DNA of 64,000 nt from Tubiluchus corallicola (Eukaryota; Priapulida; Priapulimorpha; Priapulimorphida; Tubiluchidae), in NCBI GenBank assembly GCA_030141605.1, contig JAQGDQ010000218.1, positions 248,001 through 312,000 on the forward strand, given 5' to 3'. The number at the start of each line of letters is the position of its first letter. The first letter of the stretch is position 1. This document shows, piece by piece, positions 4,901 through 60,800 of this stretch. A model generated the notes under the pieces. It did no database searches, was not told where the DNA came from, and was given only the letters and a program-made list of their open reading frames with translations. The position numbers and the translations under genes were made by a program.

Positions 4901-5887
4901 TTAGTCCTCTTCACTGGAGAAGTCATCCGAGGAGACAGCTAGATCTATAGAAATATCTGTATTTGTGGGTGGCATTTGTTGTTGACCTTCAGTGTTCTTC
5001 TTTTCAGCCAACTTTTCCACCTCCTTTCTCACCAACTTGCTTACAGTTGTTTCCATTCTCTCATACATACGATCAACTGCCTCATTCCACTCTTTTTCTT
5101 TCTTCTCCGTAATTTCTTTACTCTTCTTCTCTAAAACTGCTTCCCACTTATTTAGAGCTGCTACCCTGCATCGCTCCTCTAGTTCCATGATCTCATTTTT
5201 TAATTTTAATATCTTTTCCCTCATGACTATCTGATCTAGCTCTGTGCATGGAGGTGGAGCTTTTCGTGGCACCTTGTCCGACTGCGGTGCAAGGAATACT
5301 GGCAGATTTTTCGACTGTGTTTCCTTGTATGGTTTATAGTGTGGTAAGGCAGGTCTAGTTGGTTTTCTAACTTGGTTGGTCAGGTTATGGGTGCTGTTCT
5401 GCCTCACAATACTTCTGCTTCTGAAATTTCTGAAGGTTGAGTTGCTTGTTGGTGGCTTGAAGGCCCTGTTCTTCGGATTACTTAACTCAGGCCTTACTGT
5501 AACTGGGGAAGTTCCTCTTTTTGTTTTGGGTGATTTTGCTGTTTTGATTTTGCTTTCCTGTTCCGACCTCTGATTATGACTCTTTAAATCTCGCTCTTTC
5601 TTCCCGTCTTTTCTTTCCAGACTGCTGTCACTAGTTGTACTCCATTTGGAGCGGCTCAATCTTGGTGATCCTTCTGGTGACAGAGGTCTTTTATCAACAG
5701 AGGTTGCCTGAGGTGGCCTTTCAAGACGCTTAGTTGGCCAAGTAGCGGGAATTTGTCTACTCCCATGACATGCCTTCCAGTGTTTTGACATATAGGCAGT
5801 CCTTTGAGACCTATAGTCACAGTTTGTACAACAGTACACTGTCTCCCTCCTAAAATAGACAAAATAACAGTGTTTTAATAACTTCAT
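4901..5887 (-). CDS. Gypsy ORF3: C2H2 zinc finger plus coiled-coil accessory protein
   Basis: Open frame of 328 codons, same strand as pol, in the position where env sits in errantiviruses. It does not look like an envelope: no signal peptide or membrane anchor. Near the N-terminus is a C2H2 finger, CTNCDYRSQRTAYMSKHW and on to H (C-x2-C-x12-H-x4-H). Residues 50-210 are basic and Ser/Pro-rich, 225-300 form a charged likely coiled coil (EKILKLKNEIMELEERC), and the C-terminus is acidic. The sequence just before the finger reads TTTTGTCTATTTTAG then GAGGGAGAC (junction 5850/5849), a good 3' splice site, so the protein may be made from a spliced subgenomic RNA and the first 13 or so residues may not be used. 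Function unknown; nucleic-acid binding is inferred from the finger. Confidence 0.65.
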   Translation of the reverse strand: MKLLKHCYFVYFRRETVYCCTNCDYRSQRTAYMSKHWKACHGSRQIPATWPTKRLERPPQATSVDKRPLSPEGSPRLSRSKWSTTSDSSLERKDGKKERDLKSHNQRSEQESKIKTAKSPKTKRGTSPVTVRPELSNPKNRAFKPPTSNSTFRNFRSRSIVRQNSTHNLTNQVRKPTRPALPHYKPYKETQSKNLPVFLAPQSDKVPRKAPPPCTELDQIVMREKILKLKNEIMELEERCRVAALNKWEAVLEKKSKEITEKKEKEWNEAVDRMYERMETTVSKLVRKEVEKLAEKKNTEGQQQMPPTNTDISIDLAVSSDDFSSEED

Positions 5888-6220
5888 TTTCCACGGTTAC
5901 GTTTTTTTTTTACTAAGGTACCTTTGCCTATTTCTTTTTTTTCTACATTGTAATTGTAATAAGTGACACATTTCTAAGTGACATGTGATTATCAAGTGTC
6001 ACTAACTCATACTTTTCTATATTTTTTTTTCTTATGCTGGATGCAGTTTAATGCCTTGCCCAGGGCAACTAATCCAGATAACAGCTTTTAACAGAAAATT
6101 AATGCAGCAGCAGAGGAAAGGAAGAAAATATGGTTAAGTTATAGGTCAAGTCTGTTTGGAGGTTTCCTCATCCGCTGTCCTCTTCCTAGCATTGTGTCAG
6201 AAGTGCTACTGGACGGTTCA
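5888..6220 (-). other. Gypsy region between pol and ORF3
   Basis: No open frame. It includes the polypyrimidine-rich stretch that could serve as the ORF3 splice acceptor region. Confidence 0.4.
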
Positions 6221-9200: not shown

Positions 9201-10387
9201 GGCTTCGACGTTTCATCCATTTCAACTTGCCAATACCCGCTAGCTAGGTCGAAAGTAGAGAACCAGTGGGACCCACGTAATGTGTCAAAAATCTCTTGAA
9301 TGTTTGGCAGTGGAAACCCATCTTTAATTGTCTTTTCATTTAACTGACAATAATCAACGCAAAATCGTGTGGAGCCATCCTTTTTAGTCACCAACACGAT
9401 CGGTGAGGCCCAGGGACTGTTGCTGTGTTCAATAATTTGTTCTTTGAGCATTTTATTTATTTCAGCTTCAGCAATGGCTCTTTTCTGTTCAGCCAGTCTT
9501 CTCGGAGCTTGTTTAACTGGGTGCTCAGTACCAGTGTCAATAACGTGTCTTACCAAGTTTGTCCTGCCATATTTATTATCGGGCCCCACAAATATATCCT
9601 GATATTCCTGTATCAAATTTACGAGAGAAGATTGCTCACTAGGTGAAAGCTTAGAGCTGATTTCTTCTATTAGTTGATGCAAGTGCTCAGGGAGCAGAGA
9701 TTTCGGAGCACCCTTTTCACCAATATTTTCTGGCAACACTAAGTCAATCTGATTATCTGAAGAAGACTCATGTTCATAATCTGAACTATCCACTGAATTC
9801 TTGAAACATTGTATAGTAACTTCACCAATATGGAGAATTCCTTGCTGCATATCTAGCACAGCACTTCTTGGTTCAAGAAAATCCAATCCTAAAATTCCGA
9901 AGGGCCCTCCAATGGAAGCGACAATCATTGTACTAGTGGTACTTATTCCAGCTAATATAACTTGGAATTCAGCTTCTCCCATTTGAATCAGTGTACTAGT
10001 GGTACTTATTCCAGCTAATATAACTTGGAATTCAGCTTCTCCCATTTGAATCAGTGTGTGTCCACTAGCTGCTTGAAGATTCTTTTCGGCGCTTTTCAAG
10101 ACTGGTCTTTCTTCTTCCGGAATACTATAATACATGTAAACATCTAATATGCTAGCACTGGCTCCACTATCGATTACAAAATCTACATCTAAACTGTTGA
10201 TTAATAATTCTACATGCCAACAATATTTATAATCTACTGGTAGAACTACAATGTTCTCACTTCTCTTCTTTATCAGATCGGAGTGAGGAGGAATAACTAC
10301 TTCTTCTTTGTTCAGAGCTGCAACTACCTCTTGCTTTCCCGTCACGGGGCCAGTGCAAGGTAGTATTCCTGAGGCCTGTGTATTCAT
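6221..10387 (-). CDS. pol: Gypsy Pol polyprotein (PR-RT-RNase H-integrase)
   Basis: Uninterrupted frame of 1388 codons. Order: aspartic protease with DSGAS (about residue 80); reverse transcriptase with FSTFDLASGYWQ and YLDDIIV; RNase H with DTDASNSGIGAVL; a linker with five imperfect EAAHDLC..VEAP repeats (7740-7990); integrase with an HHCC zinc domain (HETRTGAH ... CLYCAAC), catalytic core (IDILGP, SDQGPDF, HPQSDGLVERF) and a GPY/F-type C-terminal module (GQGWQGPYLVLKK). This order (RNase H before IN) is Ty3/Gypsy. The frame differs from gag, and the first Met lies 32 nt past the gag stop, so frameshifting or re-initiation is needed. A 63-bp tandem duplication (about 9930-10055) repeats 21 residues just after the protease active site. 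Apart from that it looks recently functional. Confidence 0.95.
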   Translation of the reverse strand: MNTQASGILPCTGPVTGKQEVVAALNKEEVVIPPHSDLIKKRSENIVVLPVDYKYCWHVELLINSLDVDFVIDSGASASILDVYMYYSIPEEERPVLKSAEKNLQAASGHTLIQMGEAEFQVILAGISTTSTLIQMGEAEFQVILAGISTTSTMIVASIGGPFGILGLDFLEPRSAVLDMQQGILHIGEVTIQCFKNSVDSSDYEHESSSDNQIDLVLPENIGEKGAPKSLLPEHLHQLIEEISSKLSPSEQSSLVNLIQEYQDIFVGPDNKYGRTNLVRHVIDTGTEHPVKQAPRRLAEQKRAIAEAEINKMLKEQIIEHSNSPWASPIVLVTKKDGSTRFCVDYCQLNEKTIKDGFPLPNIQEIFDTLRGSHWFSTFDLASGYWQVEMDETSKPKTAFVTRQGLFQFRVMPFGLCNAPATFERLMEEVLRGLQWKNCLVYLDDIIVFGKNFEEAKNNLKTVFSRLRKANLKIKPSKSTLFQTSVRFLGHVVDSQGIRCDPDKILAVKNWTFPKTPTQVRSFLGFALYYRKFIPHFASIADPLTALTKKGATFIWNDSCMAAFNTLIDLLTRSPALAYPTQEGKFILDTDASNSGIGAVLSQLQVDEEKVIAYASRTLNQSQRQYCTTKKELLAVITFVKQFHHYLWGRHFRIRTDHAALTWLINFKNPEGMIARWLSILDTYDFSVEHRKGTQHGNADGLSRKPNTRVSKCPREDCNDDRHKGTKEAHSSKEISKRTRNDILKVPNNAECDFIYAIPAGNGEEESSSFRKGKVRCRKECLCMEGNSRKGEDGLDNVYEDQEAAHRLCITEAPTCGKDAAHDLCSVEAPGDIREAAQKSCLVEAPPHMEEAAHDLCLGEAPYMAEEAAHGSCFVVAPSRILASQEIEVEDEEEKKFVLDLSREDVINMQQEEEAVLLFKELKEEDLDRPSWKDVKDKHPDFKAYWNLFDVLEVRDGLLYKKWETDVTPSAPVYQMVVPTALRRKLFRALHETRTGAHQGIQRSLSLLKQRYYWPGYQADIKRWCLYCAACARRKPGKGPKRGKLQQQRATGPFERIAIDILGPLEETDKKNKVVMVVCDYFTKWAEAYALPNHEAYTVADVLVTEFICRFGVPIQIHSDQGPDFESKLFQEMCAALQIDKTRTTPYHPQSDGLVERFMRTLQQMLAIFVNDHRDDWDDHLPYVMMAYRATAHASTNCSPNLMMFGRENHLPLDVMVGPPPQPERPTQCPQEYVEWIRDVIKEAHNFARESLGKAAERQKRDYDQFVKRLSIDKGNWVWYWYPPATRRKLGQGWQGPYLVLKKINNVTYQIQRDAKAPVKVVHIDNLKLYHTDEPPIDWTEIEKLANSDDEQQLEEFELSRIFPTVNEEVAEKEEMYTTGTTTIQEKK
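7740..7990 (-). repeat. Five in-frame repeats between RNase H and integrase
   Basis: Units of about 16 codons, consensus (E/D)AAHDLC.(V/E)EAP, five copies inside pol. Not part of a known Pol domain. Confidence 0.75.
9930..10055 (-). repeat. 63-bp tandem duplication in protease region
   Basis: Two adjacent copies encoding VILAGISTTSTLIQMGEAEFQ-type residues, essentially identical, so recent. The period is 21 codons and keeps the frame. Confidence 0.9.
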
Positions 10388-10419
10388 GACCGGGACACTG
10401 GCCCCATGCCCGGTCTCCT

Positions 10420-11646
10420 TTAGTTTAACTGCTTATGTACCTGGTTTTCAGAACCAACAGCTTCTTCTCTTGGTCTTTTTGGAGATGTAGCTATCGAAAA
10501 CTGTGTCATCTTGGGAAATCTTTCTCTGCAAAATCTCATCACATGTCCAGGCTTGTGACAGTAGTAACATTCAACCTTCGCACGCCAGTCATTTTGATTT
10601 CTCACCTCATTTTGTTTTTGCATATTTGATTCAACGTTAAACTTCTTTTCTTGTTTTTCAGTATTAGTGAGTTCACGCAGCTGGTATTTTACACTGTTCA
10701 GCTCTTTCATAATTTCTTCCAAAGTTATTTCTTTGCTTGATGATGCTTTGTGTGTATAATTCACTTGGTTGATTCTCGGTTGTAGCGGCTTCTTGCTTCT
10801 AGCTTCGGCGGCCTCCTTAGTCACTGCCTCATATTGTGCAACTTTTGTTATTGCATCCTCAAGCGTTTTTGGTTCCTGGAGGCTGGCATGCTTTCTGACT
10901 TCTATGTCACCAAGTCCTTCCAGGTATTTATCAATTAGTAAAGCTTCACTAGCTTCTTTTGACAAACCAGGATAGGCTAAGCCAAACAAACGTCGAACTG
11001 TAGCTCCAAATTCTTCCGGAGTTTCACTTAATTTTCTCATTCGATGCCTCAGCTCACTGCGATGTTGTAGCATGCGTTCAGCTGGATCAAAACGTTTACC
11101 CAGTGCTTGGATGAGTGACATGTAAGTCACTTCACCAGAATCCAAATCCATTTCCATTGCAACTTCAAGTGCATCCCCTTCCAAGCATAAGGGTAGGTGG
11201 GTCACCCATTCAGTTCTTGGCCAACTGTTGTGTTTTGCAACTAGTTCAAACTTTGCAATAAATTGTCTGAACTGCAAGCCATCTCCTGTTTTAAAAGTAG
11301 GAGGCTTCTTTTCTTTGCGTATTTTGCCTGCTCCTTTTGCTTGTGTTGTCGCAGTTGGAGTTGACTGTTTGGTAAGATGGGGCAGTGGTGTCCATCCAAC
11401 TTCAGGCTGATTTGGTGTTGTATAACTTATATGTGGCCATCTTGGTTCTACTTCTTCACCAGCTTCTGATGCATTTCCCTCTGTTGACCATTCTGACCAT
11501 GGTGAATGTACTTCTACAGGTGGTGCTTCAATCCAGCCTGTATGTCTCGCACGTTTTCGCTTGCTTTCAGTACTAGGTGTACCGAGATTGGATAAAGTTG
11601 TTTTTGGTTTTACAGATGGTGTTATCTGTAATGTAGTCGGCTGCAA
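10420..11646 (-). pseudogene. gag: Gypsy Gag, main part
   Basis: Frame of 408 codons holding the capsid-like region (QFRQFIAKFELVAKHN; a retrotransposon gag domain around residues 120-260) and a C-terminal CCHC zinc knuckle, CYYCHKPGHVMRFC (C-x2-C-x4-H-x4-C). The true N-terminus is in the frame at 11622-12185; a 338-bp tandem duplication (not a multiple of 3) now splits the two. The Met at 11646 is internal to the duplicated unit and is probably not the native start. Confidence 0.85.
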
Positions 11647-12048
11647 GCTTTCTTCGTTTTGCAGTGCTGCTGGGAGTGTTGCTCTTCTCTTGCTGAATTT
11701 TCTATCTTGTTAAGATGTGGCAGTGGTGTCCATCCAACTTCAGGCTGATTTGGTGTTGCATAACTTATATGTGGCCATCTTGGTTCTACTTCTTCACCAG
11801 CTTCTGATGCATTTCCCTCTGTTGACCATTCTGACCATGGTGAATGTACTTCTACAGGTGGTGCTTCAATCCAGCCTGTATGTCTCGCACGTTTTCGCTT
11901 GCTTTCAGTACTAGGTGTACCGAGATTGGATAAAGTTGTTTTTGGTTTTACAGATGGTGTTATCTGTAATGTAGTCGGCTGCAAGCTTTCTTCGTTTTGC
12001 AGTGCTGCTGGGAGTGTTGCTCTTCTCTTGCTGAATTTTCTATCTTGT
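11373..12048 (-). repeat. 338-bp tandem duplication in gag
   Basis: Copies 11373-11710 and 11711-12048 are nearly identical. The period is 338 = 3x112+2, so it shifts the frame. Confidence 0.9.
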
Positions 12049-12185
12049 TCTGCTCCATCTGTTTCCATCTTATGCATAGCATTTTCTATGTGGACCTCTG
12101 TATTTTGTGCTCCCACAATTGTATCAGTGTTACTTTTAGGAGTGGAAGTCAGAAAGGATTTTAAGTAGGATAATATAGCTGTCAT
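11622..12185 (-). pseudogene. gag: Gypsy Gag, N-terminal part ended by duplication frameshift
   Basis: Begins MTAILSYLKSFLTSTPKS 70 bp inside the primer-binding site, which fits the native Gag start. It runs 187 codons and shares about 100 residues with the start of the other Gag frame, then goes out of frame at the duplication junction (near 11710) and stops. The element would not make full Gag unless the duplication is an assembly error. Confidence 0.85.
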
Positions 12186-12255
12186 TTTACCAATTTTATT
12201 ACAGCTTGCCGTTCTTACTCAGTTTGAATCACAATGCCTCAAAACAAAATTCAAA

Positions 12256-12273
12256 ATCCCGGACGAGCCCCCA
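12256..12273 (-). other. Primer binding site, tRNA-Pro type
   Basis: Minus strand TGGGGGCTCGTCCGGGAT, the 18-nt PBS complementary to the 3' end of tRNA-Pro (known from murine leukaemia-type viruses). It is seven bases inside the 5' LTR. Confidence 0.85.
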
Positions 12274-12280
12274 AAATGTA

Positions 12281-14061
12281 GTGTGGCACAGCTCGGCTTA
12301 AGGGTATGATATTAGGTTAAAGTGCCACCTATCATTGACTTCTGCAACTAACTTTATTTTACTTTATTTTTACATAAAAAAATGTTGGGTTCAGCTTTGA
12401 CAATATCTTGAGGCTACTTGTAATTCAAATTTAAACTGAGTAAAAGCAACAACAAGTGAACTAAGATTAAAAATAATTTATTCTATTGGCTTTACTATAA
12501 AATACAGCTAATTTTAGTTAGGTAAAATCCACAATCATCAATACTATTCTTGTTTCTAGTTAAAGAAATCTTCTATAGCAATTGCAATTGGTCATGCAAA
12601 GAATGCTAGAGTCCAGGTTTCAGTAAGATTAAGCAGTTGCAATTTTCATGCCAGTCCTGTGTATAGGTACTATGTTCCTGTTCCACATTTAACTAAAAGT
12701 GAGCAAAACTATGATCCAGTCTCTTCTTTCACTTATTTGTATAAGATCTCGAATAACCCCGGATCAATAGCTAGCTGACTTGTGATCTGCAACTTTTTTT
12801 TAAGTGGAACTTTTTCATTCCAGGAATTTTCTGCAACTTTTCTATTCTGCAACTCTTTAAATTCTGCAACTCTTTAAGTTCTGCAACTCTTTAAATTCTG
12901 CAACTCTTTTCAATTCTGCAACTCTTTTCAATTCTGCAACTCTTTTAATTCTGGAACTCTTCTATTCTGCAACTCTTTTCAATTCTGCAACTCTTTTAAT
13001 TCTGGAACTCTTCTATTCTGGAACTCTTTTAATTCTGCAACTCTTTCATTCTGGAACTCTTCTATTCTGCAACTCTTTTAATTCTGGAACTCTTTTAATT
13101 CCTGGAACTCTTTTAATTCTGCAACTCTTTTAATTCTGGAACTCTTTCATTCCAAGAATTTTCTTTTAACTCCAGGAAATTTCTGCAACTCTTTTAATTC
13201 CAGGAAATTTCTGCAACTCTTTTAATTCTGGAACTCTTTTAATTCCTGGAAATTACTGGAACTCTTTTAATTCCTGGAAATTACTGGAACTCTTTTGATC
13301 TTGGATTTTCCTGGAACTCTCAGCAACTCTTTTAAATCTTGGATTTTCCTGGAACTCTCAGCAACTCTTTTAAATCTTGGATTTTCCTGGAACTCTTTTT
13401 GTCTCTGCAACTGCTTTAATCCTGAAACCCTTTTCTAGCTTCTCTTTTGGTTTCTAGAACCTAGTGTTTCTGGAACTCTTTTCTAGGTTCTAGATTCCTG
13501 ACACATCCTAGCTAGTTTTGAAAGCTAGCTTTATCTAGTAAGTTAAAACTTACTTCTCATCCTGCTTCTTTTCCATGTTTAGATGAATCTTCAGTTGCTG
13601 TAGCTCTTTATCACTTTGAAAATGTTCGGATGTGTGTGGTCAATAGCCTGGCCCTCCCTTTATATAGCCGCCTGAGCGTCGGCGTCGCTAAGTTACCCTG
13701 GATTGTGCATTGTAACCGAGGGGTGGGCTGTTCATTACACTTTGTTACTTTCAGTCTTCTAATTATAATTTCATCAATTTGTTTTGCTCTTTTTTTAACA
13801 GCGCATATGTTTGTCTACATTTAATCTAATTTATCAGCTTATGTTTGATCCTTTTTGTTTTTATTTTCTTGTTTTCCAAACCGGGAATTCACCGGGTTCT
13901 AAAGTTTCATCGCCCTGTGTTTATCTTTCGGTCAGCATCTGGTGTGCTCGCCGAATAGCGAAGATGTGCATAACATAAGAGCATCCATAATGGCTGCGTC
14001 CATAGTGCGTGTAAACAATATTAAAATTCCGATGATTATATTTTTTTTAGAGAATATTACA
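12281..14061 (-). repeat. 5' LTR of Gypsy element
   Basis: Partner of 2601-4447 with the same ends, TATA box and inner tandem array, about 1781 bp. It adjoins the PBS at 12273. Very few substitutions separate the LTRs outside the array, so the insertion is young. Confidence 0.92.
13659..13666 (-). promoter_or_regulatory. TATA box of 5' LTR
   Basis: Minus-strand TATATAAA within GGCTATATAAAGGGAGGG; the likely core promoter for the genomic RNA of the element. Confidence 0.6.
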
Positions 14062-15199: not shown

Positions 15200-30679
<15,480 letters not shown>

Positions 30680-34848: not shown

Positions 34849-37800
34849 CTGTGAGAAAATCATATTTCATCATTTTGCAATTGAATTTAAACGAATGCGG
34901 GTCATTTTTATTCTGTCTAGACCAGAGCCAGATTTAAGCCAATTAGGCAGATTCGTTCCTGAGCCCTGCGTCAAGGGGGGGGGGGGCACGCATGGTTAAG
35001 CGGAGAACGCTATGGTGAATTAATGATGCTTATGAGTGTCCAGGTTGCACGAAGTTTCTTGATACTGTGAACGCAGTGAAACTATTCAATCTGTCCTCAT
35101 TTAAATTGGGTCCCGCGCCAAGAGGGGGGCACGCATGGTTGAGGAGAGGACGCTATGATGAATTAATGATGTTATGAGTGTCCAGGTTGCTTGAAGTTTC
35201 TTGATACTGTGAACGCAGTGAAACTATTCAATCTGTCCTAGTTTAAATTGGGTCCCGCGCCAAGAGGGGGGCACGCATGGTTGAGGAGAGGACGCTATGA
35301 TGAATTAATGTTATGAGTGTCCAGGTTGCATGAAGTTTCTTGATACTGTGAATGCAGTGAAACTATTCAATCTGTCCTAGTTTAAATTGGGTCCCGCGCC
35401 AAGAGGGGGGCACATATGATTGAGGAGAGGACGCTATGATGAATTAATGACGTTATGAGTGTCCAGGTTGCATGAAATAACACATCACTCTTCAGCCTTT
35501 AGGGCAGAGGGCCCCAATAATTTTCTATTTGGGCCCTGCACTTCCTAGGGCCGGGCCTGGTCTAGACAGTACTTTAATCATTCAACTGTGATTACTGACT
35601 TTAATCATTCAACTCTGATTATTGACAAGTTTTCACAAAATCTTTGCCAGCTTACAAACAAAAAACTAAACAATCGTTACACAATATTTTTGTGAGGGGT
35701 GAGCAGAGAATATTCGAGTTCAATTCGAATGAGTTTTTTGAGTTGAAATTCCATTCGAACCTAAATTGTAGATTCAAATAAGTCAGCAGCACTTCAACTA
35801 AATGTGTTGCTTGCAAACCAAAATCGTCCACGAGTCGGTTACATTATGATGCTTCAAAGTAAAATGCACCAAAAATTTGGTCAAATGTCAATCTTTCATT
35901 TTTTATAAAAACAAATGCTAAATATATTGGACTTTTATATTCTAGCATCAAATTGTCAAGAAAATGTTTAAAAAATACCAAAAATCTAATTATATAACCC
36001 GGTACCCACTTTTCTGGCTAGAAACTAGTACTGAAATTGTAAAACTTGTATTTTCAAACTCAGATAGTAGCTTGTGAAAGCAGTCATTTTGCTTTGGGTT
36101 TTGCCAAGCCCAGATCTTCGTCAGGAAGAGCCATCTACTGCATTTCAACATAACTTCAAAGTGCTCTTGTAAAGTCTGTAGCAACCAACATTTGTGCGGT
36201 TGCTAAGTGCTTTGTAGAAATACAATGGCTGACTTTAACATTGATTTTCTCAAGATTATGTTTTTCAGTGTGCAGCCTGCACCTCAACTTCAATGTGGAT
36301 TATCTCAGCTTAGAAATAACATAGAGTGATGAACTTGGTATTAAAATGATCCTCATGAAATGGAGATTCAGGATGAGTGAATAACTAGAAAAACTTAATT
36401 GCTGACTTATGGATTATTTTGCTATGCAAGTTCACATGATTTTTTCATTAAAACATTTCAAACATCAGCACAATTTAGCTGTGATTTCTGTACACAATTT
36501 TTAAACAAATTATTAGTATTTTTACTGCAGAACAAAATCAAGTACTATGCATGATCTTTGTGAGACAACTTTTTTGCTAGAGATTTCAAAATCTTTGAAA
36601 CTGAATTCGGATTAGAGTTCGAAATCCAGAAATTCAATTCGAGTTGAATTCGCTTTCTGATAGAGAATGCTGCTCAGCCCTAATTTTTACAGTTAACTGA
36701 CACACTAATGAACGTACTCATTCGCTTTCTGATAGAGAATGCTGCTCAGCCCTAATTTTTACAGTTAACTGACACACTAATGAACGTACTCATCGTGAAT
36801 GAAATCCTCTACAGCTTGTAATTCCGCAATTAACAGAGGTAACTCACTGCGCACGATTACGTAACTCAGGATGGGTACAAGATCATCTGCACCACTGTAA
36901 TGGAAAATAAAACAGAAATGAATTAAATCAACGCAGTTTAGGATGGGCACAAGATCATCTGCACCACTGTAATGGAAAATAAAACAGACATGAATTAAAT
37001 CAACGTAGTTTAGAATGGGCATAAGATCGTCTGCAGCACTGTAATGGAAAATAAAACAGAAATGCATTAAATCAACGTAGTTTAGAATGGGCACAAGATC
37101 ACCTGCACCACTGTAATGGAAAATAAAACAGAAATGAATTAAATCAACATAGCTTAGGACTGGCACAAGATCTTCTGCAACACTGTAATGGAAAATAAAA
37201 CAGAAATGAATTAAATCAACATAGCTTAGGATGGGCACAAGATCGTCTGCACCACTGTAATGAAAAATAAAACAGACATGAATTAAATCAACGTAGTTTA
37301 GAATGCGCACAAGATCGTCTGCACCACTGTAATGGAAAATAAAACAGACATGAATTAAATCAACGTAGTTTAGAATGGGCACAAGATCGTCTGCACCACT
37401 GTAATGGAAAATAAAACAGACATGAATTAAATCAACGTAGTTCAGGATGGGCACAGGCTTATCGGCACCAGAGTAATGAGAAATAAAATAGAAAAGAATT
37501 AAATCAACATAGCTTAGGATGGGCACAAGATCGTCTGCACCACTGTAATGAAAAATAAAACAGACATGAATTAAATCAACGCAGTTTAGGATGGGCACAA
37601 GATCGTCTGCACCACTGTAATGGAAAATAAAACAGACATGAATTAAATCAACGTAGTTTAGAATGGGCACAAGATCGTCTGCACCACTGTAATGGAAAAT
37701 AAAACAGACATGAATTAAATCAACGTAGTTCAGGATGGGCACAGGCTTATCGGCACCAGAGTAATGAGAAATAAAATAGAAAAGAATTAAATCAACATAG

Positions 37801-40800
37801 CTTAGGATGGGCACAAGATCGTCTGCACCACTGTAATGAAAAATAAAACAGACATGAATTAAATCAACGCAGTTTAGGATGGGCACAAGATCGTCTGCAC
37901 CACTGTAATGGAAAATAAAACAGACATGAATTAAATCAACGTAGTTTAGAATGGGCACAAGATCGTCTGCACCACTGTAATGGAAAATAAAACAGACATG
38001 AATTAAATCAACGTAGTTCAGGATGGGCACAGGCTTATCGGCACCAGAGTAATGAGAAATAAAATAGAAAAGAATTAAATCAACATAGCTTAGGATGGGC
38101 ACAAGATCGTCTGCACCACTGTAATGGAAAATAAAACAGACACGCATTGCTGTAAGAAACACGCTACGAATGGTACAAAAAGTTAGATACACGATGTTTA
38201 CACTTCATTTGAACTACCTGAACAGCTGAAATTTTTTGGCAATTTTTAACATCTAAGAGGAAAAAAGGTAAGCTGGATAAATACTACTAAAACCTTGAGA
38301 AAATGCTTACAAAATTTTCGGCTATGAAACTTATATTATATACATACACATATATATATATATATATATAATTTTTATTTGCCATTAAAATACATTGATA
38401 ATCACTGATAAAAACTTTACAAAGATGATCAATCAGTGTTAGTTAATAAAAACTTGCACTGCTGAAGGCGAATGCATCAGTGCAATCTAAACTACTGTGC
38501 AGTAATGGAAAGTAACGACGAATAAAATCAAACATATTTACAACTATGCACAAAAAAATGAAAAAATTATGATTTAATTAATACCACCGTGGATGTATAA
38601 ATTCTGAATTAGTGTGTATGTTGTCATGCTGGTGTGATGGTATTTCATATCTGGTTAATATTAGTGATTTTAATTTTGTTTTAAATGCTGATAGGGACTT
38701 GATTTGTTTAACCTGTTAATAATGATTTTCAACGAAAACGAAACTGAACCAAAAGTGCAATTATCGGCAAACGGAAACCAAATTTTCGTATTCGTAACAT
38801 CCCTGCTGACGCCAAAAACAATGATGAAAAATGACGTGTAAAAACACGCAAGACAAAAACAATGTAAAACTGAACTTGCCAAAAACAATGATGAAAAATG
38901 ACATGTAAAAACACGCAAGACAAAAACAATGTAAAACTGAACTTGCCAAAAACAATGATGAAAAATGACGTGTAAAAACACGCAAGACAAAAACAATGTA
39001 AAACTGAACTTGGCAAAAACAATGATGAAAAATGACGTGTAAAAACACGCAAGACAAAAACAATGTAAAACTGAACTTGGCAAAAACACTGATGAAAAAT
39101 GACGTGTAAAAACACGCAAGACAAAAACAATGTAAAACTGAACTTGGCAAAAACAATGATGAAAAATGACGTGTAAAAACACGCAAGACAAAAACAATGT
39201 AAAACTGAACTTGCCAAAAACAATGATGAAAAATGACGTGTAAAAACAAGCAAGACAAAAACAATGTAAAACTGAACTTGCCAAAAACACTGATGAAAAA
39301 TGACGTGTAAAAACATGCAAGACGAAAACAATGTAAAACTGAACTTGTGTTATTAGTAAAACTTACATTGAATTCCCCTGATGCTGTTGTCCTTTTGCAC
39401 TAAAGTACTCATCAACATTCATGCATATAATCTTGCATACTTGTACTGTGAGATACAAAGAAACAAATACAATAGTTTAAAAGTTGTTAATTATGTTATA
39501 AAGACAGACAGAATGCCCATCACGACTGTCTGTCCATCTGTGCATTGCCTGCCTTCGTTTGCAGTGGTCACAATGGCTTTTTAATTTATATAGTTTGGCA
39601 TTTTAACAAAACCAAATTTAGAATATTCACTTGAATTTAAAAGAAAACAAGACCCAATCTTAAACTGTAAGTCAAAATAATCTACTCCTTAAAATATTGA
39701 AAGGAAACGTACTATTTTTTCAAGAATGACTTACGTGAAAGAATTATTGCCACACAAACACAATTTCGCATTCGTGCCACTAGTTCTTCGCTGTTACATG
39801 CATTTCGCCATTCGCTAGTTAGATGGGCACTAGCACCTGAATTTTGGAAATGCATTGCACAAAAAACAAGCGATGTACCTCTCAATTTAGATGTGTTTTG
39901 TCGACTCCCAGTTTAGAGGTGTCTTGTTCACTCTCAATCTAGAGGTGTTAGTTTGTGACGTAGTGCACAGCTTCGACAGCTCTTGCATAAGCACAGCAGT
40001 AAATTATAAACTTGAATTTTTATCTTAAAACTTGTCTAGTTTTAGTTTAACACAATGAATCTCTTACAGTAGCAGTGTACTTCAATTTTCGTTTTCACAA
40101 ACACGTGCAACACAATATTTTTACTGTTGAGATTTATGTTAGTTTGTGATGTCATCAATAATTGGGCTCGCTCCCCGTTATCATTTAATTAACAGAAACG
40201 CTTTTGCAGTATTAATCGTGTTAAAATTATACTTTATATCAGACTTGAAAATGGGGGGGGGGGTGTATGAAAAATCATCCTGTCCTCTTTTAATTACCAC
40301 AGGTGAAAAGTTCACTAATAGACAAAGATTTGTTGTCAGAATTTTAGAAATACTTACCAATGATTTCTAATTTGCTGAGAGGACAAATACAATTGATAAG
40401 CTTTCTCAGTTCAAAGATGGCAGCACTGTACGGTATCTCCTCACTATCTAATAAACTCAACTTCTTCTTCACGGTTAGGTGATAAGGCAATGCACCTTGG
40501 TACAGCGTCATGGTTTTTGCCAAATTTATTTCCCTCGATTTGTAGACCAACCTGTGCAAGAAAATAGTTAGTAACTTTTATTTCAACTCAAAAGATTTAG
40601 TGTCTACTCACTAATAGCTACTGCAGTTATTTGCAGGAGCGTATCAAGACTCCCTAGGCTGATACTTCTGTCCTGCCAATCTTTATTGCAAATTTATGGT
40701 TGCTTATATAATAAGCAATTTAAACAATTACTTGTGGTGTATTAGAAATATTATTAAACTAGTTTCTATGTGGTTATTATTAATTACATGTATTTGCACA

Positions 40801-43800: not shown

Positions 43801-46800
43801 GAGTTATGTCGATGAAGTGCGCTCCCTGGTTCTATGCCACAAAACGGCACCCGAACGTAAAAGCATTCATTCAATCTGTCCACAACTAACGGTTTTAATT
43901 TGTCGTATATGACATACTGGTATTTCCTAAGAAGCTGGCACAGTGGATGGCCATCCGTACTGTAACGTAAAAAATTCCTTATTACATGTGTAACTGCACT
44001 AGCCGTACGTTGGGATTGAGGTGGGTTGCTACATTGCTACTTGAGGTGGGATTGAGGTGGGTTGCTACGCCTTCAAGGGGTGAAAAACTATTTTAACGCA
44101 GAAACACAGTGAAGATCTGTAATCAGATTACCCAAACGTCTTTACGGCTACAGAACAGGTGAAGACATATGATGGCATTCGCAAACATAGCTCCGTACAA
44201 ACGTCCCGTAATTACTAACATATTCCCTGTATTTACTACATAAATTCACTGTATAACTAATGTATTCACCGTATTTACTACACAAATTCATCATATTACT
44301 AAAGTATTCAATGTATTTGCTGCATAAATTCACTGTATTACTAACGTATTCACCGTATTTACTACACAAATTCATCATATTACTAAAGTATTCAATGTAT
44401 TTGCTGCATAAATTCACTGTATTACTAACGTATTCACCTTATTTACTACATAAATTCACTATATTACTAATGTATTCACTGTATTACTAACCTATTCACC
44501 GTATTTACTACATAAATTCACTATATTACTAATGTATTCACCTTATTTACTACATAAATTCACTATATTACTAATGTATTCAACGTATTTACTACATAAA
44601 TTCACTATATTACTAATGTATTCAACGTATTTACTACATAAATTCACTATATTACTAATGTATTCAACGTATTTACTACATAAATTCACTATATTACTAA
44701 TGTATTCACCTTATTTACTACATAAATTCACTATATTGCTAATGTATTCAACGTATTTACTACATAAATTCACTATATTACTAATGTATTCACCTTATTT
44801 ACTACATAAATTCACTATATTACTAATGTATTCACCTTATTTACTACATAAATTCACTATATTACTAATGTATTCACCGTATTTACTACATAAATTCACT
44901 ATATTACTAATGTATTCACCGTATTTACTACATAAATTCACTATATTACTAATGTATTCACCGTATTTACTACATAAATTACTATATTACTAATGTATTC
45001 ACCGTATTTACTACATAAATTCACTATATTACTAATGTATTCAACTTATTTACTACATAAATTCACTATATTACTAATGTATTCACCGTATTTACTACAT
45101 ATTCACTATATTACTAATGTATTCACCGTATTTACTACATAAATTCACTATATTACTAATGTATTCACCTTATTTACTACATAAATTCACTATATTACTA
45201 ATGTATTCACCGTATTTACTACATAAATTCACTATATTACTAATGTATTCACCTTATTTACTACATAAATTCACTATATTACTAATGTATTCACCCAAAC
45301 GTGAAATTGTGTGTGTGGTAATAATTCTTTCACGCAAGTCATTTTTGAAAAAATAGTTTGTTTTCTTTCAATATTTCAAAGTGTAAATTGTTTTGACCTG
45401 CAGTTTAAGATTGGGTTCAATTTTGTTTTAAATAGCATCTTGACTTCTTTTACTGTCATGACTGGACATTGTACTTCTTTTACTGTCATGACTGTACAAT
45501 GTACTTCTTTTACTGCCATGACTGTACAATGTACTTCTTTTACTGCCATGACTGTTCATTGTACTTCTTTTACTGTCATGACTGTACATTGTACTTCTTT
45601 TACTGTCATGACTGGACATTGTACTTCTTTTACTGTCATGACTGTACATTGTACTTCTTTTACTGTCATGACTGTACAATGTACTTCTTTTACTGCCATG
45701 ACTGTTCATTGTACTTCTTTTACTGTCATGACTGTACATTGTACTTCTTTTACTGTCATGACTGTACATTGTACTTCTTTTACTGCCATGACTGTTCATT
45801 GTACTTCTTTTACTGTCATGACTGTACATTGTACTTCTTTTACTGTCATGACTGTACATTGTACTTCTTTTACTGTCATGACTGTACATTGTACTTCTTT
45901 TACTGTCATGACTGTACATTGTACTTCTTTTACTGTCATGACTGTACATTGTACTTCTTTTACTGTCATGACTGTACATTGTACTTCTTTTACTGTCATG
46001 ACTGTACATTGTACTTCTTTTACTGTCATGACTGTACATTGTACTTCTTTTACTGTCATGACTGTACATTGTACTTCTTTTACTGTCATGACTGTACATT
46101 GTACTTCTTTTACTGTCATGACTGTACATTGTACTTCTTTTACTGTCATGACTGTACATTGTACTTCTTTTACTGTCATGACTGGACATTGTACTTCTTT
46201 TACTGCCATGACTGTATATTGTACTTCTTTTACTGTCGTGACTGTACATTGTACTTCTTTTACTGTTATGACTGTACATTGTACTTCTTTTACTGTCATG
46301 ACTGGACATTGTACTTCTTTTACTGTCATGACTGGACATTGTACTTCTTTTACTGTCATGACTGTACATTGTACTTCTTTTACTGTCATGACTGTACATT
46401 GTACTTCTTTTACTGTTATGACTGTACATTGTACTTCTTTTACTGTCATGACTGGACATTGTACTTCTTTTACTGTCATGACTGTACATTGTACTTCTTT
46501 TACTGTCATGACTGTACATTGTACTTCTTTTACTGTCGTGACTGTACATTGTACTTCTTTTACTGTCGTGACTGTACATAGTACTTCTTTTACTGTCATG
46601 ACTGTACATTGTACTTCTTTTACTGTCATGACTGGACATTGTACTTCTTTTACTGTCATGACTGTACATTGTACTTCTTTTACTGTCGTGACTGTACATT
46701 GTACTTCTTTTACTGTCATGACTGTACATTGTACTTCTTTTACTGTCGTGACTGTACATTGTACTTCTTTTACTGTCATGACTGGACATTGTACTTCTTT

Positions 46801-49800
46801 TACTGTCGTGACTGTACATTGTACTTCTTTTACTGTCATGACTGGACATTGTACTTCTTTTACTGTCGTGACTGTACATTGTACTTCTTTTACTGTCATG
46901 ACTGTACATTGTACTTCTTTTACTGTCATGACTGTACATTGTACTTCTTTTACTGTCATGACTGTACATTGTACTTCTTTTACTGTCGTGACTGTACATT
47001 GTACTTCTTTTACTGTCATGACTGGACATTGTACTTCTTTTACTGTCATGACTGGACATTGGACTTATGTGGACAAATGAGTAAAGAAATCAGAAGTCAA
47101 TATGTGAGTTTAAACTTTTAGTATCAGTTACCTACATAGATAAATACTCTAAGCTCATCATCTTACCTGACTATGAGCTTTATAAGATGGTCTATAAACA
47201 CCGTATCTTGCTGACTCTCTTTTAACCTTGCCCTCCAATCGAGAAGCCACGCCTGTAAGAGAAACCACACCTGTAAGAGAAGCCACGCCTGTAAGAGAAG
47301 CCACGCCTGTAAGAGAAACCACACCTGTAAGAGAAGCCACACCTGTAAGAGAAGCCACACCTGTAAGAGAAGCCACACCTGTAAGAGAAACCACGCCTGT
47401 AAGAGAAACCACACCTGTAAGAGAAGCCACACCTGTAAGAGAAGCCACACCTGTAAGAGAAGCCACGCCTGTAAGAGAAACCACACCTGTAAGAGAAGCC
47501 ACACCCGTAAGAGAAGCCACGCCTGTAAGAGAAACCACGAATTCTGTAGCAAGTACCTCATTCAAACCATTTTAAAACATTTTTCATCTTTTATAGTTAA
47601 AACATCACAACTTTATTAAAACTTTTACTTTAACGTAGTTAAAAATCATATCAAACATTTCGACAGAGCTACCGCTATCATCATCAATAGTACATTTTTA
47701 CAAACATACAACCTGTTTACATAGGCAGAAGTTACAGTATAAAACATTATGCACTAATTATCTATTTAAGAGAAGCAAAATAGGTCATGAATTACAGACC
47801 AAAAGAAAAGAAATTGATACAATAAATTATGCATAATGCATGCTTTTGTAAGTACATAATTAGTGCATAATCTACTGTATCAATTTCTTTTTTTCAGGTC
47901 TACTTAATCACTATCTATTTGTCTTTTGTAAATACATAATTAGTGCATAATCTACTGTATCAATTTCTTTTCTACTGGTCTGCTTAATCATTACCTATTT
48001 GACTTCTGATAATACATAATGTTCTATACTGTAGGTTCTGCCTTTGTAAACTGGTTGTATGTTTGTAAGATTTACTATTGATGATGACAGCGGTAGTTCT
48101 CCTTAAACGCTTGACATGATTTTTTTAACTATGTAAATTAAAAGTTTAAATAAACGTGAAGTGCTTAACTAGACATATCCAAATATATTAACAACCAACC
48201 TGATCTTGTTCATACTCTAATATAGCTAAATAGATTTGCTTCTTCTCATCTTCTTGCCTAGTACCAGTACCGCCACCAAATTTCCTAAAAGACCAAGAAC
48301 CTATTACAAAAATGTGCAAACAATACAGAATTACAGAAATTGTTGCGCTTTGTTTCTCTCGTACGGCTCGTAGAGAAACCCAGAAAACACTTCATCAAAT
48401 TAAACTAGTTTATTAAGCGAGAATTCTACAACATAAAAGTATGAAGGAACACGAAATGATTACAGTAAACGTGAAAATCTGGAAAACGTTTAAGTGTATC
48501 TGAAATTGCAAGTATACAAGAGAATGTGTAAGTGACGTCTCTGTGAATCTGTGTGTGTCAGCGGCTTGCTTCACCTTATATAGGGTGCCAGGGAACATTC
48601 TAGACGTTTCCTTCTAGAACATTCTACAAGGTAAGACGATTGTTCTAATGGAACATTCTACAATGTTCTATTTAATTCTAATAGATGCCAGCGATCTCCA
48701 CAATAGAAATTTAGTTTTTACATATAATCACAGTCTGAAAGTACCAGTACCACCACCAAACAATACAGAACTAGAGAAATTTAGTTTGTACATATAATCA
48801 CATGTAATAATATATATAATCACATATAATCACAGTTTGAAATCACCTTGCAGCAGCATCTTTGAGCTTTTCTCTTCTTTCTTCTCGTTTTCTTAATAGT
48901 TCCTCGTGTTTACTCTTAGCAATGGCTACATTTTCTAGCAGCCTTCGTTGTAATGAAACACCCTGTAGAATGAAATTGCAAACCAATTTTAAAATTATTT
49001 AGCGGGTCCCCACTCGCTACCTTCAACCTCTCCCAGAGGGGACCGGGTCCCCACTCGCTACCTTCAACCTCTCCCAGAGGGGACCGGGTCCCCACTCGCT
49101 ATCTTCAACATCTCCTTGTTTAACTGAATACCAGCCAAACTTAATGGAAAACACCTAATTGACTCAAAAATGTCTGGAACGGGGCACTCCTATTCAAATG
49201 TACATAAAAACCATCGGTAATTGACTCACATAACTGTGCACAATTGACTCAAATAACACCGAGTAATTGACTCAATATTTTCTCTTGGCGTACTTAAAAT
49301 AAGACACTTGTGTGTGACCAAAGAACTTTTACTGCTTTCATGTCATTTTTACATTGATGTTGTGCACTATAATATACGTAGAAACAGTCATGTTAAGTAC
49401 AGCTTTGTTTGTAAGCAGGTACAGTATCACAAGTACTAATATGTTAGCTTAGCAGTTTTGCTTTGAATCTGTCACCCACTTGTCCACTGCAATTAACCTC
49501 GTTGTTTCTGGAAGCTAAACATTTAATCACTTGACCAGCGGTTTGCTTTTGAAGTTCCTGCTGCTTTTCACAGGGGAAACAAGGTCATCACCAACTGCAG
49601 CTCAAGCACTAGGTGACTACGTGTTTTGAGTGAATATGTACAGTATACAGTAACAGATTTTCAAAGAAATGTTGCAGACCAAAATCAATGCATCTTTAAT
49701 GCTCAGGTCAAGTGTTCTCCAAGGTCAAACCTCAAGTGCATGCTTAATCTTTCTGAACGGAAATACTCAGTAGCTAAGAAAAAGTTCTTTTTTCAGTTAT

Positions 49801-54800: not shown

Positions 54801-57800
54801 CGGTCAAAACAAAATTTTTTACTATTTTTCCTCAAGATTATTCTATGCAAATGAACTACTGAAGAGATAATGTTTAATATAATCACCATTTTCCTTCAAA
54901 ATCTCTTGTGTCCGTTCAACGCACTGCAAGCAAAGCTTAAAGAACTTGTCGTCAGCTCCACCTAGTAGTAAAAATGTTTAATATAATCACCATTTTCCTT
55001 TAAAATCTCTTGAGTCCGTTCAACACACTGCAAGCAAAGCTTAAAGAACTTGCCGTCAGCTCCACCTAGTAGTAAAAATGTACACTGATATGTTTGTTAG
55101 GTATGAAATAAGGGGTTTTTACTTAAGCCTGTGTGTTTGCCGATTAAAGGTATGTGGTGATACTTTGTTAAATAGTCAAACACACAACACAAATCGCAAA
55201 TCGCATTTAGCCCCGCCCAACTTGAAGATGTAACACACATTCTCACAAACTCCCCCCGATACAAGTGCTTACAACACATTAACAAACTGAAAAGATGGAA
55301 AAAATTGGTACTAGTAAGTTTGCCAAAGGTAAATTTGGTCTAGCAATTTTGGTAAGAGGAATTTTTGGTGCAGCAAAATTTTAGCACAGCACCCGGAAAA
55401 TTGGATACAGAGAAAATCTTCTACTGGAAAAACTTAATACAGTACTGGCAAGCTTTTGTCACGCATTTTTAGTACAAGGAAATCTGGTTCAAGGTAATAG
55501 GAATTTTCACAGTTTCATTGCGCAGTTGCTGTAGGTCAAAGGTTAAGTGTGCCACAGCAACGAGCCTTAACTACAACTGTCACGTGACGTGTAGGTAAAG
55601 CAAAGCTGTCTGTCGCATCAGCTCAGTAGCTTCAGTTGTTTTACATAGACTTTACCTAATTATGCATTAGTCTGTGCATAGAGTGATTTACTAGCAGGAT
55701 TTTGCTCGGGAACAAAAAAATGAACTAGGTAACTGTTAAAACTGTAAGTATTACAATGACTTGGGCTACAAGGGGTTATCAATTGTAGACAAATGTGTTA
55801 TCTAGTACACTTAACCTTTGGTCTTTTCACGATCATCATCATTCGCTGGATCTGCAAGACTTATTACAGAGGATCAGAGAATTCTCTATAACAATGTATA
55901 AACTGCTCCAAATCTCGATGTTGCCTCCAGAAATACAGCACTCGTGTACGGCATCATTGAAACAGTGATAATAATGTTAGTTAGACAGTAAAATTGGTGC
56001 AATGATGATAAAAACAATTTTTCACACCGATACAATAAGGGAATATTCATCACAACGACATGACATTATCACTAGTGTGGTAGTTGGAATTGTACATTGT
56101 AGTCAGGTGCTGCCATCTATGTGCTAATCTTGTTACATTCTACAAGCTGACTTACCTTCAGTCTAATTGCATGGTCCAGTGACTACATACACACTGGTCC
56201 TCTCCCTATCAAAAATTAATGGTTGTTGTGAAGCCTGTGCAACTCTGCATAGTTCAAGTTCTACACCTGTATACTGGCTGTGAAACAGGTTTTACTGACT
56301 GTTTTTGCTTTTCTAGTTTTTGCTCAATGTTCAGTGCAGCAGTTTTCTGTAGTTCAATAAACACTTTTCTGTTGTGTGCAGTGCAAATATTTATTATAGA
56401 TTTTTGGTTCCTATTCACACTTCTCTGTGTCTAAACTCATTCATAACTAAGTGACTGAACAACAACTTCAAAAATGACTTTCACAACTAACATCCTTACA
56501 AGCCAGTGAACTTAACTTAATGTACATTTATCTAAGATTAATACAAACCTTTACTCCTTGCATCTGCCAGAAGATGTTGTATTACATACGTCACGCATTG
56601 TAAATAGGTTACGGAAGCTGCCTAGATAAGAGAATTAGAAAATATTTCAGAAAGTACCACTTTCTTAGTATAATTCTAATCACAAGAAATACAAATACCA
56701 AAACACAATGAACCAATACAAAATACAAATTATAATAATAATAATAAGAAGAATTTTTTTATTTATCTTGCAACACACGCAGAGTTATAATGCAGTAAGG
56801 ATAACAAAGTTTGGTGTCATTTATAATTATAGTGGTTCTTAGTAATTGTATCACGTATTACTCGAAATTTCAAGGTCAGGGCATTTTTACAAGCTTGGTT
56901 TCTTACAATACAAATCATTTAGGTGGGTAGTTAATAATTTTTTTTCAAAATTTTCTTATTACATATCTTGCAGTTTGCCACCTCTTGAATTATTGAAAAC
57001 TTTTTGCTTATTTTAATGTATTAATTTTTTATTTGTGTTGATGTGAAATAAACAATCTATATATATATATATAATAATCTTTATTTGCCATTAAAAACAT
57101 TGATAATCACTGATAAAAACTTTACAGAGATAATCAATCAGTGTTAGTTAATAAAAACTTACACTGCTGAAGGCAAATGCGTCAGTGCAATCTAAACTAC
57201 TGTGCAGTAATGACGAATAAAATCAAACATATTTACAACTATACACAAAAAAATATAAAAAAAACTATGATTTAATTAATATGGCCGTGGGTATATGAAT
57301 TCTGAATTAGTGTGTATGTTGTCGTACTGGTGTGATGGTATTTCATATCTGGTTAATATTGGTGATTTTAATTTTGTTTTAAATGCTGATAGGGACTTGA
57401 TTTGTTTAACCTGTAATGGTAGAGAATTCCAAAGTAGAATTGCTTGTTTGATTACAGAGTTCGTTCCATAGTGGGTATTTGTCCTAATTTGTTTTAGATT
57501 GCTTGTTCTGGAATTAACGATAGGATTTGGAAAAAGGTAAATCTGTTATTCTGGAATGGTTTGCTGATGTTGTTAATGTATTTAAATATAAAAAGCAGAG
57601 TAAAATATTCTTTGTGTGCTTCAATGATTGGGAATTTTAATGTTTTTCTCAGGTTAGTTGTTGAAGCTTTGAATTTTTGTCTACCTGCCTTGTGTTTGTA
57701 TGAGTACCCAGCTATCAATCTCAATGCATAGTTTTGAAGGAGATTTAATTTTAAGTAATTTTCTCTTTTGGTTTTTTGAAGTAGCGTACATCCATATAAG

Positions 57801-60800
57801 AAGTGTGGTAGAACTAAAGTTTTATATATTAGTGTTTTAGTTTCCTTTGTTAGTTGCCCTTTAACTTGTCGGAGATATGATGTGCTAGATGCCATTTTTG
57901 TGTATATGTTATTAAAGTGATCACCCCATGAAAGATTATTGTCTACCTGTATGCCCAGGAATTTAACATTGTTAGTTTGTTTGATTACAGCATTATCTAT
58001 TGTCAAAGTGGTTGATGATGCATCATTAGTATTTAATGAGGGTGACAGTATCATGAATTCTGTTTTGTCATTATTCATTTTTAGCTTGTAATGACTAAAT
58101 GCCATATTTATATTTTTTATATCTTCTTCTAAATAATTTTTTGCAGTTTGGACATTTTCATGGGCTATGTAGATTGTAGTGTCATCAGTGTATTGCGTTA
58201 TTTGTGAGTGTTTTAATACACTGGATATGTTGTTTATATATAGGCAAAATAATAACGGACCTAGTAGTGTTCCTTGCGGTATACCTCTGTTTAACGTGGC
58301 CCAGTCAGAAAAGTTGGTTGTATCTAACTTTACTCGTTGTTGTCTATCTTTGAGATAATTTTGTATCAGTTTTAACGATATCGAATCTAATCCTATTTGT
58401 TTTAAATTATCGTAAAGTAGTTCGTGATTAATGCTATCGAAAGCTTTACTTAAATCCAAAAATGCTGCTAAAATGTATTGCTTGTTGTCTAAACTATGTC
58501 TCCAATTTTCTGTTGTGTGTATTAGGGCGTCAATGGTTGAATGGTGTTTACGGAAGCCAAACTGATGTTTTGATAAAAGTTCATGTTTATTTACATATGA
58601 ATTTATCTGATCATAAATTACCCTTTCCCAAACTTTGCCGAAACAATGGATTACAGAAATTGGGCGATAATTCATGGGATCACATTTTGGATCTTTTTTA
58701 TGGATTGGAGTCACGTTTGCCATTTTACATACCGTTGGAAATTCGCCTCTCATAATTATCTGATTAGCAATGTAAGTCATATGCGGGGCTATTACAGATG
58801 CGCTATCTTTTAGAATTTTGATAGGAATATCTGATGGTCCACTCCCTTTGTTGGAACTTAGGTTATTTAATATGTCGTTAATTTCTCCTACTGTGACGCT
58901 TTTGAATGAGAATACTGTGTTAGACGATTTGTTTTTTAATTTATTAATTATATTATTGTTAATATGAGAAGCCACTCCCTTAAAATTTCCAAGATTCAGG
59001 AATATTGCATTTAGCGCATTGGCAATATCTTTGGGTTTTGTAATAACAGTGTTGTTGATCTTAATTTCGTCAACACGCGTTAGTTTGTTACGGCATTTAT
59101 TTATTACATTGTTAATAATTTTCCATTTTTCTTTGGTATTTGTTGCGTTTTTACATTGTTGTTGTATATGTTTATTTTTCAAGCATTTATTAAGATTATT
59201 AAATTGATTTCTCTTTTTTTATAATTGTTATGATTGTTTTTAGTTTTGTTCTTTTCCCATATATTATACATTCTGTTTTTCGCTATTCTTAGTTTGTCAA
59301 GTTCAGGTGTTGTCCAGGTACTTTCGTTATTGAGTTTGCTTTGTTGTGGGATTTGCTTTACGTTTTTATATGGTGCATGTACATTAAGGCAATATTCGAC
59401 ATTATATGTCAGAATATTAACTTGTGTATCTATTTTATCAGTCATATATATGGAGGTCCAGTTCATTTTTGCTAAGTCGATTAAGTATGAATGTTTGTTG
59501 TATTGGGCGTAGTCTCTCATTAAATGCCAGACTGAATTTTGGTTATTATTATGCTGTGGGGTCATTTTATCTACTAATATTATGAAATGATGATCTGAAT
59601 AATCACACGGGAAAGTATCATATGCTACGAAATTATTGTTACTATTCGAAATGAAATGGTCGATTACTGTGGCTGATGTTTTAGAAATTCGAGTAGGTTT
59701 ATTGTTGTTAAGTATGTGGACATTATATTGTTTTAAAAGCTCTGTGTATGTTTTGTATGCCAGTGTGTTTGTAGCTAAAATATCAAGGTTGAAATCGCCC
59801 ATTATAAGTACTTTTTTATTTTCGAAAACACTGCGTTCTAGTTCTTCACTAAAGTATTTGAAAAATGTTTTGTGTTTGAGATTGGGTGGTCTATATATGG
59901 TTCCTATTACATAGTTCTCAATGCTGCACCAAACAGATTCAATTTTGCCAGTTCTGATGCCTTTCATTTCTTGTGGTCTCAGGTGTGAAGGTATATACAT
60001 CGCAACCCCTCCACCTTTCTTATTTTTACATCTATCTCTTCTTATTAATGTGTGATTAGGTAATTCTATAGTGTTGCTAAGTATTTGTTTATGTAGCCAA
60101 GTTTCTGTTATGCCTACAATCAGATTTTCGGTGGCGTGAATTGTATCTTTCAGCAGCCAGTGTTTTTTGACGAGACTTTGAATATTTATATTTAGAAATT
60201 TGATGTTCTTTTTATAAGTAATCATGAATTTTTTTAGCTTATCACTGGTATTATTATTGTTGGTGTTATTATTATTATTATTTGGCAAAATGGGTCCAGG
60301 GTTAGTTTCGATACCACCAAGTATAAGTAGTAAACGAATTATGGTTAAAATGTAAGCCAGTTCAGAACATGAGTATAGAGTGCTTTCAAATTTAGATGAA
60401 ATCTGTAATTTTTCCAATTTTTTTAGAGCTACGTATTTTAGATTGACATGACGCATTTGTCTTATAGCACTGAGGTACACAACTTTTAAGATGGATACAA
60501 ATCTTTTTAAAATAAATTGCATAGAGTGTCTTATTCTATCGCTATTTACAGGAAAAGCAATGAAAAAGTTGTTTAAATTACCTTTAGTCATTACATTACA
60601 AATTACTGTTACGTAGATCATTTTCAGTTTTAGTATGGAGAGTAATGTACGTAGTATAACTAAGACGTAAGCATAGTTACAATAAAAGAACTTAACTGTT
60701 TGATATTTGGCGTTAAATATACAAAGGCTCCCATGATCACAAATAAATTTGGTAATTTTATGATAAGATACGTTAGAAATATCAACTATGATACAAGAAG

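Follow-up and report, generated by a model that had tools for sequence, protein, structure and literature searches.

We analysed a 64,000-nucleotide stretch of the genome assembly of the priapulid Tubiluchus corallicola (GCA_030141605.1, contig JAQGDQ010000218.1, positions 248,001 to 312,000; hereafter the window, in whose own coordinates all positions are given), in which a 72-bp minisatellite lies across the junction between intron 12 and exon 13 of a minus-strand gene. We take this gene to be VPS9D1, a name that comes from an earlier note on this DNA and that no search returned. Its exons were placed with a related protein, P0001 (671 amino acids, from a 2254-bp 'lgn' contig), and the splice sites were then set by hand. 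Joined through the acceptor at 36894, the 14-exon model is 81.6% identical to P0001 over its length. Among the matches listed, P0001 was the one protein brought up by a search with a 475-residue open frame that crosses the minisatellite, and its compact length over many exons suggests that it derives from a spliced transcript. The Pfam family PF02204 (VPS9) matches 36780-36947 on the minus strand (E 3e-8, 34.4 bits, cutoff 27), while the exon 14 piece alone falls under the cutoff (E 1e-4, 23.1 bits). Among PDB sequences, P0001 finds weak but real VPS9 matches (plant VPS9a and Rab5 GDP/GTP exchange factor chains); the 475-residue frame, searched directly, finds no match there. A single-sequence structure prediction of P0001 was poor (mean predicted local distance difference test score, pLDDT, 40.5) and was not used. 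The features of the window are collected in Table 1.

Table 1. Coordinates of the features discussed; k counts the units of the 72-bp array from 0, starting with the unit nearest to the body of exon 13.
Feature	Positions	Strand	Remarks
VPS9D1 gene model, exons 1-14, 655 aa	34772..63478	minus	no stop; 3' end not reached
VPS9D1 exon 13, core of the VPS9 domain	36790..36894	minus	105 nt, phase 2 at entry and exit
VPS9D1 exon 12	39367..39445	minus	donor AATTCAAT/GTAAGT pairs with the 72-bp ladder; exon end 39367
72-bp ladder, VPS9D1 exon 13 acceptor	36859..38142	minus	17.8 copies
Canonical (exon-nearest) acceptor boundary, CATTACAG/TGGTGC	36894..36895	minus	36894 is the first exon base; agrees with the P0001 junction
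AG-less unit k = 8 (TC for AG)	37435..37506	minus	identical copies 37723-37794 (k = 12) and 38011-38082 (k = 16)
Second ladder, VPS9D1 exon 8 acceptor	47241..47538	minus	16 units of 18 bp, exon-start positions 47252..47522
VPS9D1 exon 13 donor, perfect 72-bp tandem duplication	36648..36793	minus	further donor copy leads to a stop
VPS9D1 exon 3 (75 nt), whole-exon tandem duplication, 104-bp unit	54869..55081	minus	both splice sites included
VPS4 exon 6 donor ladder	21119..21202	plus	donor copies at +0, +19, +40, +59
VPS4 exon 8 donor, 75-bp duplication	23442..23582	plus	frame kept
67-bp x 8 minisatellite, VPS9D1 intron 12-13	38811..39347	minus	

The array is a ladder of 18 units whose exon-start positions fall at 36894 + 72k (k = 0 to 17), the last at 38118. 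They span 1224 bp, or 17 x 72, and Tandem Repeats Finder (TRF) gives 0% indels, in agreement with the exact spacing described in the earlier note. Read on the minus strand, each unit joins 36 bp of intron end (TGATTTAATTCAT to CATTACAG) to 36 bp of exon 13 start, as had been proposed, except that the intron end of the most upstream unit (k = 17) is incomplete. The array is in this sense a minisatellite across an exon boundary, built of part-intron, part-exon units that carry a splice signal. Eighteen acceptors in register had been claimed; the 18 units are indeed in register, but CAG stands at the junction in 15 of them, the other three (k = 8, 12 and 16, with exon-start positions 37470, 37758 and 38046) having CTC. 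Units 0-4 and 6 are single types. A 288-bp (4 x 72) higher-order repeat, with the AG-less type among its members, makes up the upstream part of the ladder, and its identical units form the sets k = 5/9/13, 10/14, 7/11/15 and 8/12/16. A single stop-to-stop frame of 475 residues (36780-38204, minus) crosses every unit into exon 13, and joining each of the 18 unit choices in silico to exons 12 and 14 gave no stop and 24 further residues per unit. The supposed chain of alternative 3' splice sites is thus present as a frame-keeping chain of potential sites, with an AG in 15 of its 18 units only. The repeated segment had also been assigned to a conserved stretch of the VPS9 domain, and this holds: the true exon copy lies inside the Pfam match, and the copy in P0001 aligns with PGADEFLP of plant VPS9a.

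This arrangement is probably the outcome of minisatellite growth across a splice junction, with an array that is mostly spliced out whole and a predicted leakage of in-frame inserts. A minisatellite would have nucleated across the intron 12/exon 13 junction and expanded through repeated tandem duplication, lately in blocks of four units, each unit bringing what appears to be a whole 3' splice-site module (branch-like motifs, a pyrimidine tract and, in the 15, the AG) together with 12 codons. Exon 12 would be spliced to 36894 in most pre-mRNAs, removing the array with the intron and giving the normal protein. The further acceptors are probably used by some messages, which would then carry 24-residue in-frame inserts just before the aspartate segment of VPS9, and we infer that such leakage is tolerated. 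In the 23-nt window of an acceptor matrix trained on the 18 other acceptors of VPS9D1 and VPS4, the two genes modelled here, the canonical acceptor scores no higher than most other units, and the window gives no reason to prefer the nearest one. An analogy is offered by human CBS 844ins68, in which an intron-exon junction is duplicated once: splicing strongly prefers the more distal site and yields normal mRNA (PMC2630376, in the part available). On this analogy the exon-nearest acceptor would be chosen here, and it is most likely the one that most pre-mRNAs use. The junction in P0001, a relative known from its protein alone, is plain and has no insert, just as the exon-nearest acceptor gives here. 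Similar events have occurred at five other places in the two genes: in VPS9D1 at exon 3, at the acceptor of exon 8 and at the donor of exon 13, and in VPS4 at the donors of exons 6 and 8. Of these five, two lead to a broken frame or a stop. In the ladder itself the AG-less unit was amplified together with other units. The array has the look of a side effect of repeat richness in this genome and is no proven switch.

From the open frame and the absence of net indels, the earlier note had inferred either a length switch or a tolerated splicing hazard under selection to stay in frame. We compared the ladder with 46 arrays (period at least 12, at least 3 copies) from the window and 192.6 kb of the same genome, both acceptor ladders included. 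Indels are at 0% in 28 of the 46, and the period is divisible by 3 in 21; at least one of six frames is open in 14 of these 21, versus 3 of the 25 others. Upstream of the other acceptors of the two genes (n = 21), the in-frame sequence stays open for 36 nt or more in 12 cases and for 18 nt or more in 14. By hand, this puts the chance of a 72-bp ladder being in frame at about 0.26 (21/46 x 12/21), and that of both ladders at about 0.08 if independence is assumed. The array itself is beyond chance, but the features called special are not: indel-free, in-register, open arrays are common in this genome. The units themselves carry no mark of coding constraint in their exon-derived halves, as judged from stops and from nonsynonymous and synonymous counts in the ten unit types of k = 0-16. 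No stop occurs among the 28 variant states, as would be so for a random set with P = 0.63, and in the exon half 12 changes are nonsynonymous and 8 synonymous, against an expected 69:30. Stops, indels and replacements in the repeat show no shortage against chance. Given the chance of about 0.26, the lack of coding constraint and the presence in the window of arrays that break the frame (VPS4 exon 6 and the further exon 13 donor copy), selection to stay in frame is unsupported. Openness with zero indels, considered as proof of such selection, was rejected against the control arrays and the other acceptors. That the ladder is in frame would be mostly luck, owed to its period and to a stop-poor pyrimidine tract.

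Several observations weigh against reading the ladder as a by-product. The canonical acceptor does not stand out from the other units: a score of 6.0 is shared by 13 of the 18, among them the canonical one, two have 4.8 and the three AG-less units -7.3, with training acceptors at 7.0-15.4. (Units of the exon 8 ladder with CAG score 7.3-11.4.) The frame is kept in both acceptor ladders and in four of the six splice-site arrays, above the rough 0.26, though cases are few; leaving out the whole-exon case makes it three of five, for which the rough 0.26 gives about 0.11 by hand. Finally, the intron halves of AG-bearing units vary little, which is unexpected for dead intronic repeats. The nine AG-bearing unit types hold 3 variant states in the intron half against 16 in the exon half (P = 0.002 if the halves are equal), a contrast conceived post hoc after the units had been viewed. 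It persists when G/C sites are taken to be twice (P = 0.007) or three times (P = 0.013) as mutable, when CpG sites are excluded (3 to 13, P = 0.011), and when site rates by base class are drawn from 26 control arrays (P = 0.005). Six control arrays vary enough for comparison, and in none of them does either half show so little variation. The six single unit types alone give 2 to 16 (P = 0.0016); excluding unit 0, the true exon, gives 3 to 13 (P = 0.02), and limiting the test to the AG-bearing types of the 288-bp block, three in number, gives 1 to 4 (P = 0.23). Private states of the AG-less type number 5 in its intron half and 4 in its exon half (Fisher test against the rest, P = 0.068). It looks as though the splice modules had been preserved and the codons left free to drift, the opposite of frame selection. 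The intron half might also have been quieted by mutation differences beyond base class or by gene conversion acting unevenly.

Taken at face value, this pattern would make the ladder a working one, with redundant 3' splice sites yielding a family of VPS9D1 proteins in 24-residue steps. Retention of the AG in most units, the quiet intron halves, the different spread of states in the AG-less type and a frame kept by every unit choice all point that way. Against them stand the post hoc nature of the test and its weakening without the true exon and within the 288-bp block types, the amplification of the AG-less unit three times, and the likely harm of an insert of up to 408 residues in the VPS9 domain. 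In addition, no protein with an inserted repeat was found at E 0.001 among the 7997 candidates scored (261-831 aa), among the matches listed. We regard a working ladder as unlikely. A broader form of the idea, in which acceptor ladders serve genes of this lineage as a working feature, with the module kept in each unit, codons drifting and VPS9D1 length changing in steps set by two ladders (72 and 18 bp), seems to us distinctly improbable.

A regulated form of the length switch suggested earlier, with acceptors chosen by tissue or stage, has the frame-neutral choice as its sole point; the acceptor windows are nearly identical and would make the units indistinguishable, and such a switch is very unlikely. 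New introns could in principle have formed within the array by the pairing of donors in the repeated exon with later acceptors, for which potato RNA-dependent RNA polymerase (RdRp) is a precedent (PMC4974935, in the part available). One GT, in unit k = 3 (about 37103, CAG/GTGATC), does score 7.3, within the 6.6-11.2 of 20 training donors. No other GT of the 94 in the array exceeds 4.6, and the small exon left would be 8 nt, by hand count not a multiple of three, which leaves us giving new introns very little credence.

The assembly itself is redundant, and the array is present in three contigs of its 343.5 Mb. Pieces of 4284 bp are identical between the three, those of 10 kb agree fully over 9.85-9.98 kb, and additional pieces of 3.8 and 3.2 kb, from the two of these contigs that do not hold the window, equal the window. 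We considered and rejected three alleles of the array: the contig copies, being identical, are redundant, represent one allele and carry no information on polymorphism. Byte-identical copies with identical flanks might also be taken to mean that the assembler made the array or its copy number. The ordered differences between units, the unique proximal end (units 0-4 and 6) and the cut distal end speak against such an artefact, as do the many other arrays of different period assembled in the region, and it is hardly credible.

Arrays of period at least 9 make up 17.3% of the window. In a sample of 192,618 bases drawn from 20 further places of the assembly their share is 9.7%, a figure that may be low for the animal since this uncleaned sample holds some bacterial-looking pieces. 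With both copies of exon 3 included, nine of 48 splice sites lie inside arrays, versus a mean of 8.7 in a rotation test, and six arrays hold splice sites versus a mean of 5.3. These comparisons show no enrichment of arrays at splice sites.

At exon 8 of VPS9D1, the second acceptor ladder has CAG in 15 of its 16 units and CGG in one, is in frame and codes for (LLLQVW)n-like repeats. Its units read TTACAG/GTGTGG, so that the AG adjoins a GT. The perfect duplication at the exon 13 donor has the same 72-bp period as the unrelated acceptor ladder 66 bp away, and no reason for the equal period was found. The two copies of exon 3 differ by one residue (G/D) and at silent sites, and using both keeps the frame without a stop. 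On the plus strand the window holds a VPS4 gene, whose ten exons join to 394 residues. This protein is 99% identical to P0002, another 'lgn' protein, and 87-89% identical to VPS4 of Priapulus caudatus, its best named match among the best 120 of 5631. Each further donor of the VPS4 exon 6 ladder (+19, +40 and +59) breaks the frame and brings a stop, and these donors outscore the nearest one (7.3 vs 5.8). P0002 is without either VPS4 insert, that of exon 6 or that of exon 8.

Repeats are found elsewhere in the window as well. A 30-bp x 54 array at 45443-47066, in a VPS9D1 intron, has long open frames on both strands and is non-coding but coding-looking. By open reading frame (ORF) content, 2881-13824 resembles a retroelement, with long ORFs (6221-11709, minus) flanked by similar stretches (2881-4210 and 12560-13824). 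A matching minisatellite lies in each flanking stretch (3150-3764 and 12829-13396), an arrangement that resembles long terminal repeats containing an array. At 57494-62844 on the minus strand, ORFs that look like reverse transcriptase and endonuclease suggest a long interspersed nuclear element (LINE). Among the sampled assembly pieces, three look bacterial: ORFs of at least 200 aa cover 88% of L007, 83% of L012 and 53% of L023, which has 19% GC. Some pieces of the sample hold ORFs that are presumably thiamine-enzyme-like, and the assembly probably includes associated bacteria.

Minisatellites at exon boundaries and duplicated splice junctions are known. A 31-bp variable number tandem repeat (VNTR) in human CBS reportedly yields alternative splice forms. 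This repeat, c.1444_1467+7(16_21), places 16-21 units of 24 exonic and 7 intronic bp across an exon-intron boundary and is, like the VPS9D1 ladder, a many-unit minisatellite spanning such a boundary; unlike it, it lies on the donor side, has a frame-breaking unit and is a human polymorphism, whereas the VPS9D1 ladder is on the acceptor side and frame-neutral (PMC2630376, in part). CBS 844ins68 shares with VPS9D1 a tandem repeat of intron end and exon start that gives competing splice sites, but has two copies of 68 bp, not a multiple of three, rather than 18 units (PMC2630376, same part). In human duplicated genes, internal tandem repeats at exon-intron boundaries lead to alternative splice patterns, with 27 intron modifications retained on inspection; that survey concerns recent paralogues, and its accessible sections describe no many-acceptor ladder (PMC2812944). 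In potato RdRp, a tandem duplication across an intron-exon boundary gave a new intron; the duplicated piece holds a branch site, pyrimidine tract and 3' splice site as here, but unlike here it was duplicated once (PMC4974935, in part). Neither a many-unit ladder of in-frame acceptors nor a paper on priapulid minisatellites was met in the literature searched, which is weak evidence, as subscription journals lay mostly outside it.

Studies of how the spliceosome picks one of several equivalent acceptors lying close together usually rely on artificial constructs with two sites. VPS9D1 offers a natural test, with 15 near-identical acceptors 72 nt apart and three natural AG-less controls, to which a second exon adds 15 acceptors 18 nt apart. 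Since all of these acceptors are frame-neutral, cDNA would report their usage directly, with no messages lost to a frame shift. If arrays do meet splice sites by chance throughout the genome, as the nine of 48 in this window suggest, the locus would also let one ask how a genome copes with mass duplication of its splice sites.

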